Shown piece by piece: positions 16,932 through 62,447 of a stretch of 64,000 nt of DNA; the stretch's first letter is position 1; every line of letters starts with the position of its first letter. Origin of the DNA: Roseibium salinum (GTDB lineage Bacteria > Pseudomonadota > Alphaproteobacteria > Rhizobiales > Stappiaceae); contig NZ_JAPEVI010000003.1 in the NCBI RefSeq assembly GCF_026240905.1, positions 62,001-126,000 of the forward strand. Direction: 5' to 3'. Both the position numbers and the translations under genes were made by a program. Under the pieces are notes generated by a model. The model ran no database searches. It was given only the letters and a program-made list of their open reading frames with translations, and had not been told where the DNA came from.

Positions 16932-17234
16932 TCAGCCGGATGTTCCGATCAGCACTGTCGGAAATCCACTAACGATTGCCCCGCCCTTCAGTGTCAGGTC
17001 AGTCATGCGGGCCGCCGGCAGCTTTTCGACCAGCACGGTCCAGGCTCCTGTAACGATCGGGTCGCCGCCGACCGGCGGCGGGGGGCCGAGACAAACGCAC
17101 AAGTCGGTGACGCGGGCTTGAGGCATCTTGCCCGTCAGCACGGAATAGGCACATTTGTAAGCAATCGGCGCAGGCACACCCGCACAGCTTGGGCAGGTAT
17201 GCATATCGGTCAGTCGGGCGGCAGGGAACTTCAT
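16932..17234 (-). CDS. PAAR domain protein (orphan spike-tip type)
   Basis: A 100-residue protein consisting of one PAAR domain. PAAR proteins form the sharp zinc-binding tip on the VgrG spike of type VI secretion or related contractile systems. Three repeats are visible: PAARLTDMHTCPSC at the N-terminus, PQARVTDLCVC in the middle and PAARMTDLTLKGG near residue 75. Pro-Val-Gly-Gly-type turns and an FPTVLIG ending are typical. No VgrG, Hcp or sheath gene is present in this window. The 153 bp after the stop code for Gly/Ala/Pro-rich peptide in two frames, so a longer ancestral C-terminus is possible. Confidence 0.82.
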   Translation of the reverse strand: MKFPAARLTDMHTCPSCAGVPAPIAYKCAYSVLTGKMPQARVTDLCVCLGPPPPVGGDPIVTGAWTVLVEKLPAARMTDLTLKGGAIVSGFPTVLIGTSG

Positions 17235-17952: not shown

Positions 17953-18492
17953 TCATTCCGGCGCGGGAGTGAGATACTTTGCCGGCACGGCATCCGTCAG
18001 CCAGACGCCGTTCTCCGTTCGGTAGAAGACATGGCCGGCGAGCCCCATGGGGCACGTCGCGATTTGCAGAACGACGGGTTTTCCGTGCCGGGCTCCTACC
18101 TTGACTGCGGTTTCGAAATCGGACGACAGATGCACATGGTGCCGGTTCATGGGTTTGAGACCCTCCTTCAGGATGAGCGGTAGAGCCCGGTGAGCCGTTC
18201 CATGGAACAGGCGGGCGGGGGGCTCGGAAGGCTCCAACCCGAGGTCGATCCGGACGGAATGTCCCTGCCGCGCGCGGATCATCGTGCCGTCCTTTGAAAA
18301 TTCGAATCTCTGCTTGTCGTTGGTCTCGACCACCCGCTCAAGGTGTTCGCGGCGGCAGGCAAGACCCGTCTCCCTGAAAGCGCGCAATAGCTCGCCAACG
18401 TCGGCCCAGCCGTCTTTCGTGAGTTCAATCCCGGCGTCCTCCGGCCGGTGGCGGAGCCAGAAAGACATGCGTTTGGAAATGTCTGTTTTCAT
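17953..18492 (-). CDS. kptA: RNA 2'-phosphotransferase (KptA/Tpt1 family)
   Basis: Tpt1/KptA enzymes transfer an internal RNA 2'-phosphate to NAD+, giving ADP-ribose 1'',2''-cyclic phosphate. In eukaryotes this finishes tRNA splicing; in bacteria the RNA target is unclear. The 179-residue protein has the conserved SKRMSFWLRHRPEDAGI (residues 5-21, the Arg-His pair), RARQGHSVRIDL, LFHGTA and HHVHLSSD motifs, which carry the catalytic Arg/His residues. I chose the ATG at 18492 because it gives the normal KptA N-terminus; an upstream 32-residue extension has no family counterpart. It lies 175 bp downstream of the slipin gene and tRNA-like RNAs on the same strand, which suggests a shared RNA-repair role. 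Confidence 0.92.
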   Translation of the reverse strand: MKTDISKRMSFWLRHRPEDAGIELTKDGWADVGELLRAFRETGLACRREHLERVVETNDKQRFEFSKDGTMIRARQGHSVRIDLGLEPSEPPARLFHGTAHRALPLILKEGLKPMNRHHVHLSSDFETAVKVGARHGKPVVLQIATCPMGLAGHVFYRTENGVWLTDAVPAKYLTPAPE

Positions 18493-18667
18493 AAGGTCAT
18501 CAGTTCTTAAAAAATACTTCGGACAGGCGCTCAAGCGATGAGCTGGGCAGTCGGGCACCCAGCAAGGGCGCGCTCCTGACAAGACCATTCGTCAAAGCTC
18601 CCGTGGCGGATGTTGCCGCCCAGAAAGGTGAACGGCGCGGAGGGTGTCCGCGCCGTCCGGTTCTTGT

Positions 18668-19822
18668 TCAGGCCGCGCTTTCGTCCCGCAGCCTGACGAG
18701 GTCGTTCATCAGGCCGCCGGTTCCGTTGTGGATCGTCAGGCGATCCACCTTTGCGGCGATGGATTCAAGCGCTTCCAGTTCCTTCAGCCGGAGCATGACC
18801 GGGTTTTCGGCCATGACCTTTGCCGTGTTCAGAAGCGAACGGGTTGCGTTCGTTTCTTCCCGGCGCCGGATCACGTTGGCTTCGGCTTCCTTTTCCGCCG
18901 TGACCACCTTGTTGAGGATTTCCCGCATTTCGCCCGGCAGGATGACATCCTTCAGGACGATGTCGGACACCTCGACACCGATCATGGCCATGTCGGCCCT
19001 GATCTTGTCGGCGGCTTCGGCGTTGACCTCGCCCTTGCGTTCAAGGATCTGGTCGAGCTTCAGCGCGCCAAGGTGCTGCCGGAACACCAGCTGCAGCGCC
19101 CGGTACAGCGTGTCGGCGAAGTCCTTGACCTCGGTTGCGGCCTTCACCGGATCAGCCACGCGGTACTCCGCGGACAGGTTGATCCGGATCGTGACACGGT
19201 CGAGGGTCAGCACTTCCTGACCGGTGACGTCCAGGCTCTGCCGCTTCAGGTCGATGATCCGCTGCGTCACGGTCCGGCCCGCCTTCCAGTAGGCGTGGAG
19301 GCCGGCCTCCAGCACCTTGGTCAGCACGCCGTCCATGTGAAGGAGCGCCACGCTGCCCTCGGTAACCGGAACGATCACGAACTGCTGCGTCTGCCGGGCA
19401 TCGCCCAGCCGGCGCATCAGCTTCGGCGACAGCTCCGGGTCCGCCTCCGTGTCGAACAGCTCCCAGGTCCACGGGCCGGCTTCACGCCACAGGACAAGCC
19501 GCTCATCCGGCCCAAGGACCGTGTGAACGCGGTTGTCCCGTTCCAGCACGGCGACTTCGCCCGGCTTCGTCCGCACGACCGTCAGGTGCCTTTCCGCAAC
19601 TTCGGGCAGCTTGTCGAAAAGAGCCTTCTCGTAATCGGACCGGAACTGCGGCTGTGCCAGGTTGTGACGCTCGATCACCAGTGTGCCGCGCATGGTCGCG
19701 AGGCTGTGTTCACCTGGTCCGAGGATACCCTGGAGTTCACCCTTGGCCAGGTGAACCGCCCGTTCGTTTTCAGAAATCAGCACGCGGGTGCGCCCGCGGA
19801 TCTTGTCGAGAAAAGTCTTCAT
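18668..19822 (-). CDS. Slipin family protein (SPFH/band 7)
   Basis: A 384-residue SPFH/stomatin-type protein. The N-terminal part (about 1-165) is longer than in ordinary stomatins and has two related beta-rich segments (VLISENERAVHLAKGELQGILGPGEHSL; PGEVAVLERDNRVHTVLGPDERLVLW). The SPFH core (about 150-300) contains LTLDRVTIRINLSAEYRV and VSDIVLKDVILPGEM. A charged helical C-terminus (about 300-384) follows. No strong membrane helix is visible. As I recall, slipins with this layout recur in bacterial RNA-repair operons beside RtcB/RtcA or pseudo-tRNA genes. Here it sits between two tRNA-like RNAs and kptA. The ATG at 19822 has a GGAAC ribosome site. Confidence 0.88.
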   Translation of the reverse strand: MKTFLDKIRGRTRVLISENERAVHLAKGELQGILGPGEHSLATMRGTLVIERHNLAQPQFRSDYEKALFDKLPEVAERHLTVVRTKPGEVAVLERDNRVHTVLGPDERLVLWREAGPWTWELFDTEADPELSPKLMRRLGDARQTQQFVIVPVTEGSVALLHMDGVLTKVLEAGLHAYWKAGRTVTQRIIDLKRQSLDVTGQEVLTLDRVTIRINLSAEYRVADPVKAATEVKDFADTLYRALQLVFRQHLGALKLDQILERKGEVNAEAADKIRADMAMIGVEVSDIVLKDVILPGEMREILNKVVTAEKEAEANVIRRREETNATRSLLNTAKVMAENPVMLRLKELEALESIAAKVDRLTIHNGTGGLMNDLVRLRDESAA

Positions 19823-20209
19823 TTCGATGTTCCTTCCATTGCGCTAATGCACTTGGATTTTCCTTTCGTGGTTGATGTCGGTTGGGGGTCGGAGAAATCC
19901 GCTCACTTGCGGAGCGAGCGGGGCGAAAACAGTGAGACCTGAAGAGAGCACAAGTGCTCAGGCCGGGTCCTGAACCAGAGGGCGTTACGGCGGACAGGCA
20001 GGTTGCGCCCGTTCGAAAACCGGCGGCTCCGGCAGGTCAGCGGTGCGGCCTTGGCATAAGACCGGGCAAGAGCGCCCGACGTCGGCAGGACGAGCGCATG
20101 GCAAACGCCTTGCAGCTCAACCGGCTTCCGCAAGCCTCTTCAGATCCCCAATTGAAACAGCTCCCAAAGCTGGCGGCTTTACAGGCCTTACCGGCGTTTG
20201 ACGGCCGGC
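19823..20209 (-). other. Non-coding stretch between tRNA-like RNAs and slipin
   Basis: 387 bp with no credible gene. It contains small hairpins, among them GAGCAC-AA-GTGCTC at 19947-19960 and a CGCTC/GAGCG hairpin near 19900-19920. If transcription runs from the tRNA-like RNAs into the slipin gene, this would be a long leader. No terminator with a T-run is visible on the minus strand. Confidence 0.5.
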
Positions 20210-20283
20210 ACGATGGAGCGGGGATCGAACCCGCGACCCTCGGATTAAATGTCCGATGCTCTACCCAATTGAGCTATCCAATG
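20210..20283 (-). ncRNA. tRNA-like RNA B (Lys-TTT-like, defective)
   Basis: Read on the minus strand it folds as a tRNA. The D-arm is GCTC-AATTGGGTA-GAGC, the anticodon stem TCGGA/TCCGA, the variable loop GGGTC, and the T-arm GCGGG-TTCGATC-CCCGC. The elbow signals (D-loop GG, T-loop TTC) are intact. The anticodon loop is CATTTAA, giving TTT in the Lys position but A instead of the near-universal U33. The acceptor stem CATTGGA/TCCATCG has two mismatches, and no CCA follows. Its first two bases overlap the CCA of the upstream tRNA-like RNA. It is unlikely to serve in translation. Confidence 0.7.
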
Positions 20284-20356
20284 GTGCACATGACAGGACT
20301 CGAACCTGTTGCCTCCGGGCAATATATCCGGCGTTCAACCTTTGAACTTCATGCGC
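20282..20356 (-). ncRNA. tRNA-like RNA A with encoded CCA
   Basis: A 75-base tRNA fold on the minus strand. The acceptor GCGCATG/CATGTGC pairs fully (G3-U70 wobble) and is followed by A73 and an encoded CCA. The D-arm is GTTC-AAAGGTT-GAAC. The T-arm is perfect, ACAGG-TTCGAGT-CCTGT. The anticodon arm is abnormal: CCGGA/CCCGG has an A-C mismatch at its top, and the loop TATATTG has A at position 33. U8 is also replaced by A. The combination of a preserved elbow and acceptor with a broken anticodon loop suggests a structural tRNA mimic rather than a decoding tRNA. Confidence 0.72.
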
Positions 20357-20723
20357 TGGCATCCGATCTTGCCGTGCAGCATCCGTACATGAAGTCGGCA
20401 GGGCCGGATCATGTGGGCGGCAGAAAACAGCCGAGCCGTTGATGTCTGCGCCGGTATAGCGATCGGTGGCGGAGCTAATACGTCAAGCCGTGCGGTCGTG
20501 GCAACCGGAAATTCCCGTTCCGTGCCGATTTGTTGTTTTTGGGTTACAGTTCGTTGCGTTTCTGCAACAGTTCGGGCTGCAGTATACAGGTCTTGTTGAG
20601 AGAGCGGTTACTGCCCGCGTTCCGGTGACGTTCCCAAAACCAGTTCAGGCATGGCCCTTGCGTCGCACACAACGTGAAGGCAAACTCGGGCGTGAAAAAC
20701 GTGTCCCGTACCAGCGAGTTACC
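20357..20723. other. Intergenic region upstream of tRNA-like RNAs and SnoaL gene
   Basis: 367 bp between divergent units. It contains a TTGC-GTTTCT-GCAA hairpin at 20553-20566. On the minus strand a GG (20384-20383) and GC (20372-20371) pair has sigma-54 spacing just upstream of tRNA-like A, but the flanking bases do not match the consensus. No gene is visible. Confidence 0.45.
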
Positions 20724-61502: not shown

Positions 61503-62447
61503 ATGGCCGCCTATATCGCCAAGCGTCTGCTGGCCGCCATCCCGGTCCTGTTCGGACTGACGATCATCGTCTTCCTGATCATGGCCATGATCCCGGGCGA
61601 TCCGGCAACGGCCATCCTCGGCTCCTACGCCACACCGGAAAATGTTGAACGCCTCAACAAGCAGCTGGGTCTCGACAAGACCCTGGTCGAGCAATATTTC
61701 ATCTGGATCGGAAACCTGCTCCAGGGCGATCTCGGCCGGTCCTATACGCTCAACCGGCCGGTGCTCGACGAGGTGCTGGAGCGCTTTTCCGCAACGCTCA
61801 TTCTGGCCGGCACCTCTCTCGTTCTGTGCTCCATCTTCGGCCTGCTTGCCGGGATCGTGTCCGCCGTGCGCCAGTATGGCTGGGCGGACAAGGTCATCAC
61901 GCTGCTGGTCCTGATCGGCATTTCCACCCCGTCCTTCTGGCTCGGGCTGCTGCTGATCCTGGTCTTTGCGGTCAACCTGCGCCTGTTCCCGGCCTCGGGC
62001 ATGTACGCGATCTATGGCGGCGGCGACCTGATGGATCTGATCCATCACCTGACGCTGCCGGCGCTGACGCTGTCGGTGGTCGCGACCGGGGTGATCGCCC
62101 GGCTGACGCGCACCGCGATGCTGGAAGTGCTGCGTCAGGACTATATCCGCACCGCGCGGGCCAAGGGGGTTTCCGAGCGCAAGGTGATCTACAAGCACGC
62201 CTTCAAATCCGCGCTGGTCAGCGTCGTTCCGGTGATCGGCATTCAGGCGGGGTTCGTCATCGGCGGCGCGGTCTATATCGAGACCGTCTTCCAGTGGCCC
62301 GGTATCGGCACCATGCTGGTCACGGCGATTTCCACCCGCGATCTTCTCCTGGTGCAGGGCGGGGTGCTGGTGGTGGCCGCCGCCTATGTGCTGTTCAATC
62401 TGTTTGCCGATGTGATGCAGACGCTTCTTGACCCGAGGTTGCGCTGA
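61503..62447 (+). CDS. ABC transporter permease (DppB type)
   Basis: A 314-residue inner-membrane permease with six helices. The DppB N-terminus MAAYIAKRLLAAIPVLFGLTIIVFL is followed by the EAA motif RTARAKGVSERKVIYKHAFKSALVSVV (near residue 215) that contacts the ATPase. The ATG at 61503 has a GGAGGGAGAGAA-type site. Its stop overlaps the next gene's ATG by one base (TGATG). Confidence 0.94.
   Translation: MAAYIAKRLLAAIPVLFGLTIIVFLIMAMIPGDPATAILGSYATPENVERLNKQLGLDKTLVEQYFIWIGNLLQGDLGRSYTLNRPVLDEVLERFSATLILAGTSLVLCSIFGLLAGIVSAVRQYGWADKVITLLVLIGISTPSFWLGLLLILVFAVNLRLFPASGMYAIYGGGDLMDLIHHLTLPALTLSVVATGVIARLTRTAMLEVLRQDYIRTARAKGVSERKVIYKHAFKSALVSVVPVIGIQAGFVIGGAVYIETVFQWPGIGTMLVTAISTRDLLLVQGGVLVVAAAYVLFNLFADVMQTLLDPRLR

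Follow-up and report, generated by a model that had tools for sequence, protein, structure and literature searches.

A tRNA-mimic RNA and slipin unit beside KptA in Roseibium salinum, a candidate ligase-free variant of bacterial RNA-repair loci

A 64,000-nucleotide stretch of the Roseibium salinum genome (NZ_JAPEVI010000003.1, positions 62,001 to 126,000 of a 5.78 Mb genome; hereafter the window) carries on its minus strand a compact locus that runs, in transcription order, from a palindrome through RNA domain A, tRNA-like 1, tRNA-like 2 and RNA domain B to a slipin gene and kptA. We document the parts of this locus, their order and conservation, covariation within the RNA, and an exchange of the genes that neighbour slipin. 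The reading we favour, which we hold about as readily as we doubt it, is that the locus is a ligase-free member of a slipin-centred RNA-repair family built on a slipin-RNA assembly with tRNA mimics and exchangeable end-healing enzymes. Since a cluster of a tRNA mimic, a slipin and rtcAB was published in 2012 from Pelobacter (PMC3543383), we call the locus a variant and not a new kind: what is new is its ligase-free, RNA-rich form. The features are as follows.

20553..20568, no strand assigned: palindrome GTTGC-N6-GCAAC, a possible operator
20360..20470, minus strand: RNA domain A, a structured leader directly 5' of tRNA-like 1 (covariance model match)
20285..20356, minus strand: tRNA-like 1 (Rfam tRNA, 49.1 bits), with a full acceptor stem, an encoded CCA and the anticodon loop UAUAUUG, which lacks U33
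20210..20283, minus strand: tRNA-like 2 (Rfam tRNA, 51.4 bits), with a shortened acceptor stem UGGA/UCCA and the anticodon loop CAUUUAA, which lacks U33
19930..20149, minus strand: RNA domain B, spanning about 220 nt, lying between tRNA-like 2 and slipin and closed by a long helix (covariance model match)
18668..19822, minus strand: slipin, with three N-terminal beta repeats, an SPFH/Band_7 domain and a long helix
17953..18492, minus strand: KptA/Tpt1 RNA 2'-phosphotransferase (family profile), with an intact Arg-His-Arg-Arg tetrad

An earlier sequence-only reading of this DNA had found a pair of tRNA-like RNAs, a slipin and KptA sharing a strand. Rfam, ARAGORN and family profiles bear out all four parts; the two structured domains and the palindrome had been overlooked, and with about 330 nt of further conserved structured RNA the unit is not the minimal one it was taken for. 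The anticipated synteny of slipin and kptA with tRNA-like RNAs upstream is real within the genus: the order is the same in 14 of 14 genus relatives whose KptA exceeds the family cut-off, so the arrangement is not a chance one. Both tRNA-likes were called by Rfam in 13 of these relatives, the second tRNA-like of the remaining one (L034) being an ARAGORN call. The closest named relatives in a slipin profile search of related contigs belong to Roseibium, Labrenzia and Stappia.

A slipin-alignment search of related contigs found 87 relatives, from which 80 loci were kept, mostly from Mesorhizobium and also from Rhizobium, Filomicrobium, Ruegeria and others. A tRNA-like RNA lies 5' of slipin in 79 of the 80 (77 by ARAGORN, with L044 and L118 added by a cloverleaf parser), and the last, L101, offers just 352 nt before slipin, too little to judge. 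KptA was matched in 9 of the 80 loci, all Roseibium-type, and among the representatives examined the genes downstream of slipin differ between genera. The constant unit is therefore the RNA together with slipin. Slipin was present in 23 of 398 sampled genomes of the phylum and in 5 of 289 sampled genomes of the class. RtcB was sought in 47 slipin genomes, 14 of other classes and 33 of the window's class. It lies within 4 kb of slipin on the same strand in all 14 of the former (directly downstream within 1 kb in 12, upstream in G461, on both sides in G480), which upholds the tie of slipins and tRNA-likes to RtcB loci that the earlier reading had drawn. Beside slipin it was found in none of the 33 genomes of the window's class, 19 of which carry RtcB-family genes elsewhere.

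The loci in which slipin is linked to rtc genes share the tRNA-like RNAs as well. At L180, rtcR is followed by three tRNA-likes, slipin, rtcB and rtcA, and the upstream genes tested in six such loci encode RtcR in five (L170, L179, L180, L182 and L185) and an aldo/keto reductase in one (L169). tRNA-like RNAs stand 5' of the rtc-linked slipins in 13 of 14 loci at a parser score of at least 16, and in the 14th by an Rfam match of 29.9 bits. A score of 17 or more was reached by 12 of 14 rtc-linked loci and by all 4 distant alphaproteobacterial ones, compared with none of 360 shuffles and 7 of 371 control pieces of genomic sequence; the seven comprise four ordinary tRNA genes, two slipin tRNA-likes in overlapping pieces and one background match (L181). 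The two rtc-linked loci below that score are L185, at 16, and L170, which scored 0 and is the locus with the Rfam match. The parser is a blunt tool that missed tRNA-like 1 in L042/L149 and in six Mesorhizobium-type loci, and its alphaproteobacterial matches less than 290 nt from slipin, inside domain B, were removed before the tally.

In Escherichia coli and Citrobacter (L206:5992-7916 and L207:3915-7868), the gene after slipin encodes RlaP (PF10127), and in Citrobacter RtcR is divergent; among 5426 complete E. coli genomes, 1617 cover the E. coli slipin-RlaP stretch to at least 80%. Next to slipin stands RtcB in all 14 sampled genomes from outside the window's class, RlaP in the E. coli and Citrobacter records, and KptA in 15 of 20 slipin-bearing genomes of the genus. 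The literature counts all three as RNA-repair enzymes and describes KptA as removing 2'-phosphates and RlaP as restoring nucleotides ahead of ligation (PMC9503650, PMC7824862). Slipin stays while its partner enzyme changes between RtcB, RlaP, KptA or none of these, and because the RNA-repair neighbour is exchangeable, slipin looks like a scaffold that works with tRNA-mimic RNAs. The absence of RtcB, RtcA and Ro60, first noted for the window, extends to the whole genome in profile searches: there was no match to RtcB (PF01139; 9 of 14 known genomes match as a positive control), RtcA (PF01137; 5 of 14) or Ro60/TROVE (1 of 14, Deinobacterium chartae), while no genome-wide search was made for RtcR. 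Judged by its sequences, the alphaproteobacterial branch is one with no ligase link and with extra RNA domains. Upstream of slipin-RlaP we also noticed by eye a TGGCACG-N4-TCGCA stretch resembling a sigma-54 promoter, and a T-arm-like hairpin.

The tRNA-like RNAs themselves are predicted to be mimics that would be unable to serve as ordinary tRNAs. A functional tRNA has a full acceptor stem, and its anticodon loop counts 7 nt and includes U33, features that the window pair does not combine: neither loop has U33, and in tRNA-like 2 five of seven acceptor positions are paired and the CCA adjoins the T stem. ARAGORN called tRNA-like 2 as tRNA-Lys UUU and left tRNA-like 1 uncalled. For the parser, which assumes a 5-bp anticodon stem, a canonical loop is one of 7 nt with U33. 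By this measure tRNA-like 1 is canonical in none of 41 distinct Mesorhizobium-type copies (loop length 6 nt in 30 and 5 nt in 11) and none of 18 Roseibium copies, making 59 of 59 resolved copies non-canonical, with the caveat that the 11 loops of 5 nt allow an alternative reading, a 7-nt loop on a 4-bp stem, which in a few would contain U33. Canonical loops occur elsewhere in 2 of 10 other alphaproteobacteria, 2 of 4 distant alphaproteobacteria and 1 of 10 rtc-linked copies. The acceptor stem of tRNA-like 1 is mostly full and is followed by CCA in 38 of 41 Mesorhizobium-type and 13 of 18 Roseibium copies, and tRNA-like 2 begins at or inside this CCA.

In tRNA-like 2 the acceptor stem is usually truncated, and the T stem runs straight into UCC in 38 of 39 Mesorhizobium-type copies and in 19 of 20 from Roseibium (57 of 59 together), as well as in 10 of 14 copies from other and 3 of 4 from distant alphaproteobacteria. 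Among 35 unique Mesorhizobium-type copies its stems are invariant or nearly so, the entropies at positions 34, 35 and 36 are 1.71, 1.47 and 0.84 bits, and ten anticodon triplets occur (one from a misparsed copy), with close relatives differing widely. This loop variation would fit diversifying decoys, or a mere absence of loop constraint. The Rfam YrlA model spans the tandem pair from end to end, both in the window (20210-20356, 31.4 bits) and at L066:5505-5604 (32.4 bits); both matches stay well under the gathering score of 69. Two tRNAs in tandem may be seen as a tRNA-like domain in permuted order. A third T-arm-like hairpin, CGGGTTCGACTCCCGG, lies just 3' of tRNA-like 2 in L026, L030 and L034 and is perhaps the remnant of an additional tRNA-like unit.

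Domains A and B were recognized with covariance models built from Mesorhizobium-type sequences alone. The domain B model (R1, from 40 of 54 such sequences) was run on 55 other sources and matched 23 loci at E-values up to 9e-4, placed between tRNA-like 2 and slipin. With default filters it missed the window, L030, L035, L116, L120, L125/L188 and L187, and matched L028 partly; with filters off, domain B of the window scored 32.3 bits at the expected place. In the 23 out-of-sample sequences, which were chosen because they matched R1, the Mesorhizobium structure is paired in 89.0% of 1448 cells, compared with 66.7% in shuffled and 35.8-46.1% in slid controls. Two-sided changes are found in 53 of 65 base pairs, and the 14-bp closing helix is 97.5% paired. 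The domain A model (R2, 39 sequences) identified about 110 nt in the window (30.1 bits, E 1.5e-4) and matched 12 of 14 Roseibium loci at E up to 0.002, with L024 at 0.008 and no match in L027; it also matched further alphaproteobacteria and one rtc-linked locus, L174. Across 24 out-of-sample sequences, 89.5% of 780 domain A cells are paired, with two-sided changes in 28 of 33 pairs. Both alignments were fitted to the structure, which favours pairing, and the slid and shuffled controls are the safeguard. Another alignment, A6, which was accompanied by antisense matches of Mesorhizobium sequences, was left out of use.

A whole-genome R1 pass with stricter filters, covering 80 of 98 genomes, gave matches nowhere but beside slipin: all 3 Mesorhizobium-group genomes that have slipin (one genus) were matched, and none of 4 relatives that lack it. 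The same pass missed Roseibium copies that the locus search had found, so absence in it proves little. When Rfam was searched at gathering and relaxed thresholds, tRNA alone scored above gathering, followed by the sub-threshold YrlA match and weaker unrelated rows; since nothing beyond tRNA reached its gathering score, domains A and B are left without an Rfam family. Domain A, the tRNA-like pair and domain B together form a long folded RNA that is apparently undescribed.

Control of the locus appears to differ between the branches. GTTGC-N6-GCAAC, with at most one mismatch, stands 5' of the RNA in 18 of 20 Roseibium, 40 of 56 Mesorhizobium-type and 9 of 14 other alphaproteobacterial loci (expected counts 0.28, 1.14 and 0.32), with exact copies in 11, 6 and 4 of them, respectively. 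It typically lies 640-825 nt before slipin, and it was found in 0 of 14 rtc-linked loci. Genome-wide, 9 sites compare with 7 for the reversed control, a count so little raised that only the position of the palindrome is informative. We infer that in the alphaproteobacterial version control by RtcR seems to have given way to that by another regulator.

How might such a unit work? We propose that domain A, the two tRNA mimics, domain B and slipin would be carried on one transcript, which in most slipin-bearing Roseibium would include KptA. Slipin would form a soluble ring or cage, like other SPFH proteins, and would bind the tRNA-mimic RNA. The mimics might act as bait, guide or competitor; nucleases that cleave tRNA, or factors with affinity for damaged tRNA, might be captured or competed for, and the partner enzyme would heal RNA ends. 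A 2H phosphoesterase is encoded elsewhere in the window's genome; such an enzyme could open 2',3'-cyclic phosphates, after which KptA could strip the leftover 2'-phosphates. Several findings weigh against this proposal. Model R1 found nothing significant in 14 rtc-linked and four distant alphaproteobacterial loci, and it is the rtc-linked absence that counts here. UCC follows the T stem directly in only 6 of 15 rtc-linked copies. A canonical loop, of 7 nt and with U33, is retained by tRNA-like 2 in 8 of 20 copies from Roseibium and in 31 of 39 of Mesorhizobium type, so loss of U33 is not general. Variation in tRNA-like 2 also reaches one T-loop position (entropy 1.49) and position 32 (1.00), and KptA is absent beside most of these slipins. 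Because so few rtc-linked copies have a buried CCA and other loop positions vary too, our confidence is slightly lower than it would otherwise be.

A further difficulty is the placement of the RNA, immediately 5' of slipin and on its strand, which a cis-acting leader fits equally well. In this main rival, which we consider possible though on the unlikely side, the whole RNA would be the leader of the slipin mRNA, and the mimics would be built-in sensors whose cleavage or binding by tRNA-processing or tRNA-cleaving enzymes switches expression of slipin (and KptA). The contiguity of domain A, both tRNA-likes and domain B immediately 5' of slipin in every aligned locus would be expected of such a leader, and the final stretch ahead of the slipin start codon is conserved too. 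However, most leaders that we know of are smaller and less conserved than this RNA. Moreover, tRNA-likes stand ahead of slipin in rtc loci under RtcR control as well, and there damaged RNA is already sensed at the level of transcription (PMC7790460).

The protein at the centre of the proposed slipin-RNA assembly shares 31-40% identity over nearly its full length with rtc-linked slipins. Its structure was modelled from 39 diverse sequences, replacing a poor first model built from 15 close ones (predicted local distance difference test score 48.5), and the predicted fold is like that of ring- and cage-forming SPFH proteins. No convincing membrane segment or hydrophobic N-terminal segment was found in the 39 sequences, where the top 19-residue mean of 1.83 falls inside a predicted beta region, and the slipin is apparently soluble. 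PADLOC gave no match for slipin or KptA, and no phage record matched slipin at E 1e-10. A bolder version of the proposal, to which we give little credence, sees a small bacterial vault-like ribonucleoprotein: the slipin, with its beta repeats, would form a soluble cage on the composite RNA, the mimics would bait tRNA-targeting nucleases or their products, and RtcB, RlaP or KptA would dock. If this were true, domains A and B would be the RNA core of the particle in alphaproteobacteria. The likeness to major vault protein and the vault particle was drawn by fold alone; the slipin model aligns at full length to some vault chains with a large root-mean-square deviation and a Z-score below that of stomatin, in a comparison that barely tests residues outside 137-368. 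There was no vault family among the families listed for the 39 slipin members (E up to 1) and no vault chain at E up to 10.

KptA had been regarded as a core part of the system. Its identification as KptA/Tpt1 stands, with the family profile matched and the catalytic tetrad (R14, H15, R62 and R117, as described in PMC6333775) intact, and it is predicted to have 2'-phosphotransferase activity. Relatives align from the ATG at 18492, so the longer open reading frame up to 18588 is probably over-extended. Across 87 genomes of the family, slipin occurs in 21, KptA over the family cut-off in 19, and both, always adjacent, in 15. Within the 45 genomes of the genus, slipin was found in 20 and KptA in 15, all of which carry slipin (counts uncorrected for shared ancestry). 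Six slipin genomes are without KptA (G001, G031, G032, G044, G069 and G071), and tRNA-like RNAs lie upstream of slipin in all six; four genomes, all from other genera of the family, have KptA without slipin (G010, G011, G017 and G022). With KptA beside 15 of 21 family slipins, beside 9 of 80 in the wider set, and without slipin in four family genomes, its place as a core part is not supported. In G017 (L021) kptA is frame-broken and in G034 (L020) it is a fragment, signs of loss in the family. It is quite improbable, then, that the locus is a KptA-centred minimal repair island in which KptA acts on both tRNA-likes and slipin is an accessory: KptA adjoins slipin in 15 of 15 genus genomes with KptA over the cut-off, but 6 of 21 family and 71 of 80 wider slipins have no nearby KptA match and still have their tRNA-likes, a distribution that speaks against the general case. 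That an ordinary membrane-microdomain slipin merely sits beside functionally unlinked tRNA pseudogenes left by an integrating element, as the usual membrane association of SPFH proteins and the frequent use of tRNA genes as integration sites might suggest, is very improbable indeed, since synteny and covariation are strongly contrary, with an order common to distant genera, compensatory RNA changes, no hydrophobic N-terminal segment and recurrent RNA-repair neighbours.

The nearest published relative of the slipin-RNA unit is the Pelobacter carbinolicus cluster of rtcR, the mutant tRNA Pcar_R0061, a stomatin-like gene, rtcA and rtcB (PMC3543383). In Pcar_R0061 the anticodon is changed, U33 has become A, the CCA is buried next to the T stem and pairing is kept by reciprocal changes. 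Both loci place a tRNA mimic upstream of a stomatin-like or slipin gene, and tRNA-like 2 of the window has both the buried CCA and the loss of U33, neither of which is general across copies. In contrast, the window's genome has no RtcA, RtcB or Ro60 match, its mimics are two in tandem, its partner is KptA, and it has domains A and B, which the section of that paper on the cluster does not mention. Salmonella rsr-yrlBA-rtcBA is likewise an RNA-repair operon with an RNA bearing a tRNA-like domain, suggested to be a competitive inhibitor of an anticodon nuclease (PMC7790460); here there is no Ro60 match in the genome, the YrlA model stays far below its gathering score, and slipin takes the place of Rsr. 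PaFlo8 is an SPFH gene inside a Pseudomonas aeruginosa rtc locus (PMC13086221) and resembles our case in encoding an SPFH protein within an RNA-repair locus; it differs in the presence of RtcA, RtcB and RtcR and, in the passage on this locus, in the lack of mention of a tRNA-like RNA, and the two are likened by description, not by sequence. The slipin-RlaP pair of E. coli and Citrobacter belongs to the same slipin subfamily (35-36% identity) and has an RNA-repair enzyme as its next gene, with the differences that RlaP replaces KptA, RtcR is divergent in Citrobacter, and ARAGORN finds no tRNA, leaving the T-arm-like stretch seen by eye. In Anabaena, a slipin gene and rtcB are among the genes raised in a trcR mutant (PMC10272220). 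Among the literature matches listed, which left most subscription papers outside their scope, neither the ligase-free form nor domains A and B were found described.

To our knowledge, the role of SPFH proteins in bacterial RNA-repair loci is not known, and this locus could help to reveal that of slipin. It brings together one repair enzyme, a slipin that is apparently soluble and a conserved RNA amenable to synthesis in vitro; because these parts occur without RtcB and RtcA, the RNA ligand of slipin and the substrate of KptA become directly testable. The natural substrate of bacterial KptA is not settled (PMC6333775). Another contribution of the locus is a pair of structured RNA domains, with no Rfam family found for either, and the slipin-RlaP form of E. 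coli offers a familiar host for comparison.

Two neighbouring genes deserve mention. In Mesorhizobium loci, for example at L061:1514-4525, a caspase-domain protein (PF00656) of about 1004 amino acids with weak TPR similarity is encoded upstream on the same strand, and open reading frames of like length recur upstream in many other Mesorhizobium loci. In the window, positions 16932-17234 of the minus strand encode a small PAAR-motif protein (PF05488), of the type found at the tips of contractile secretion systems.

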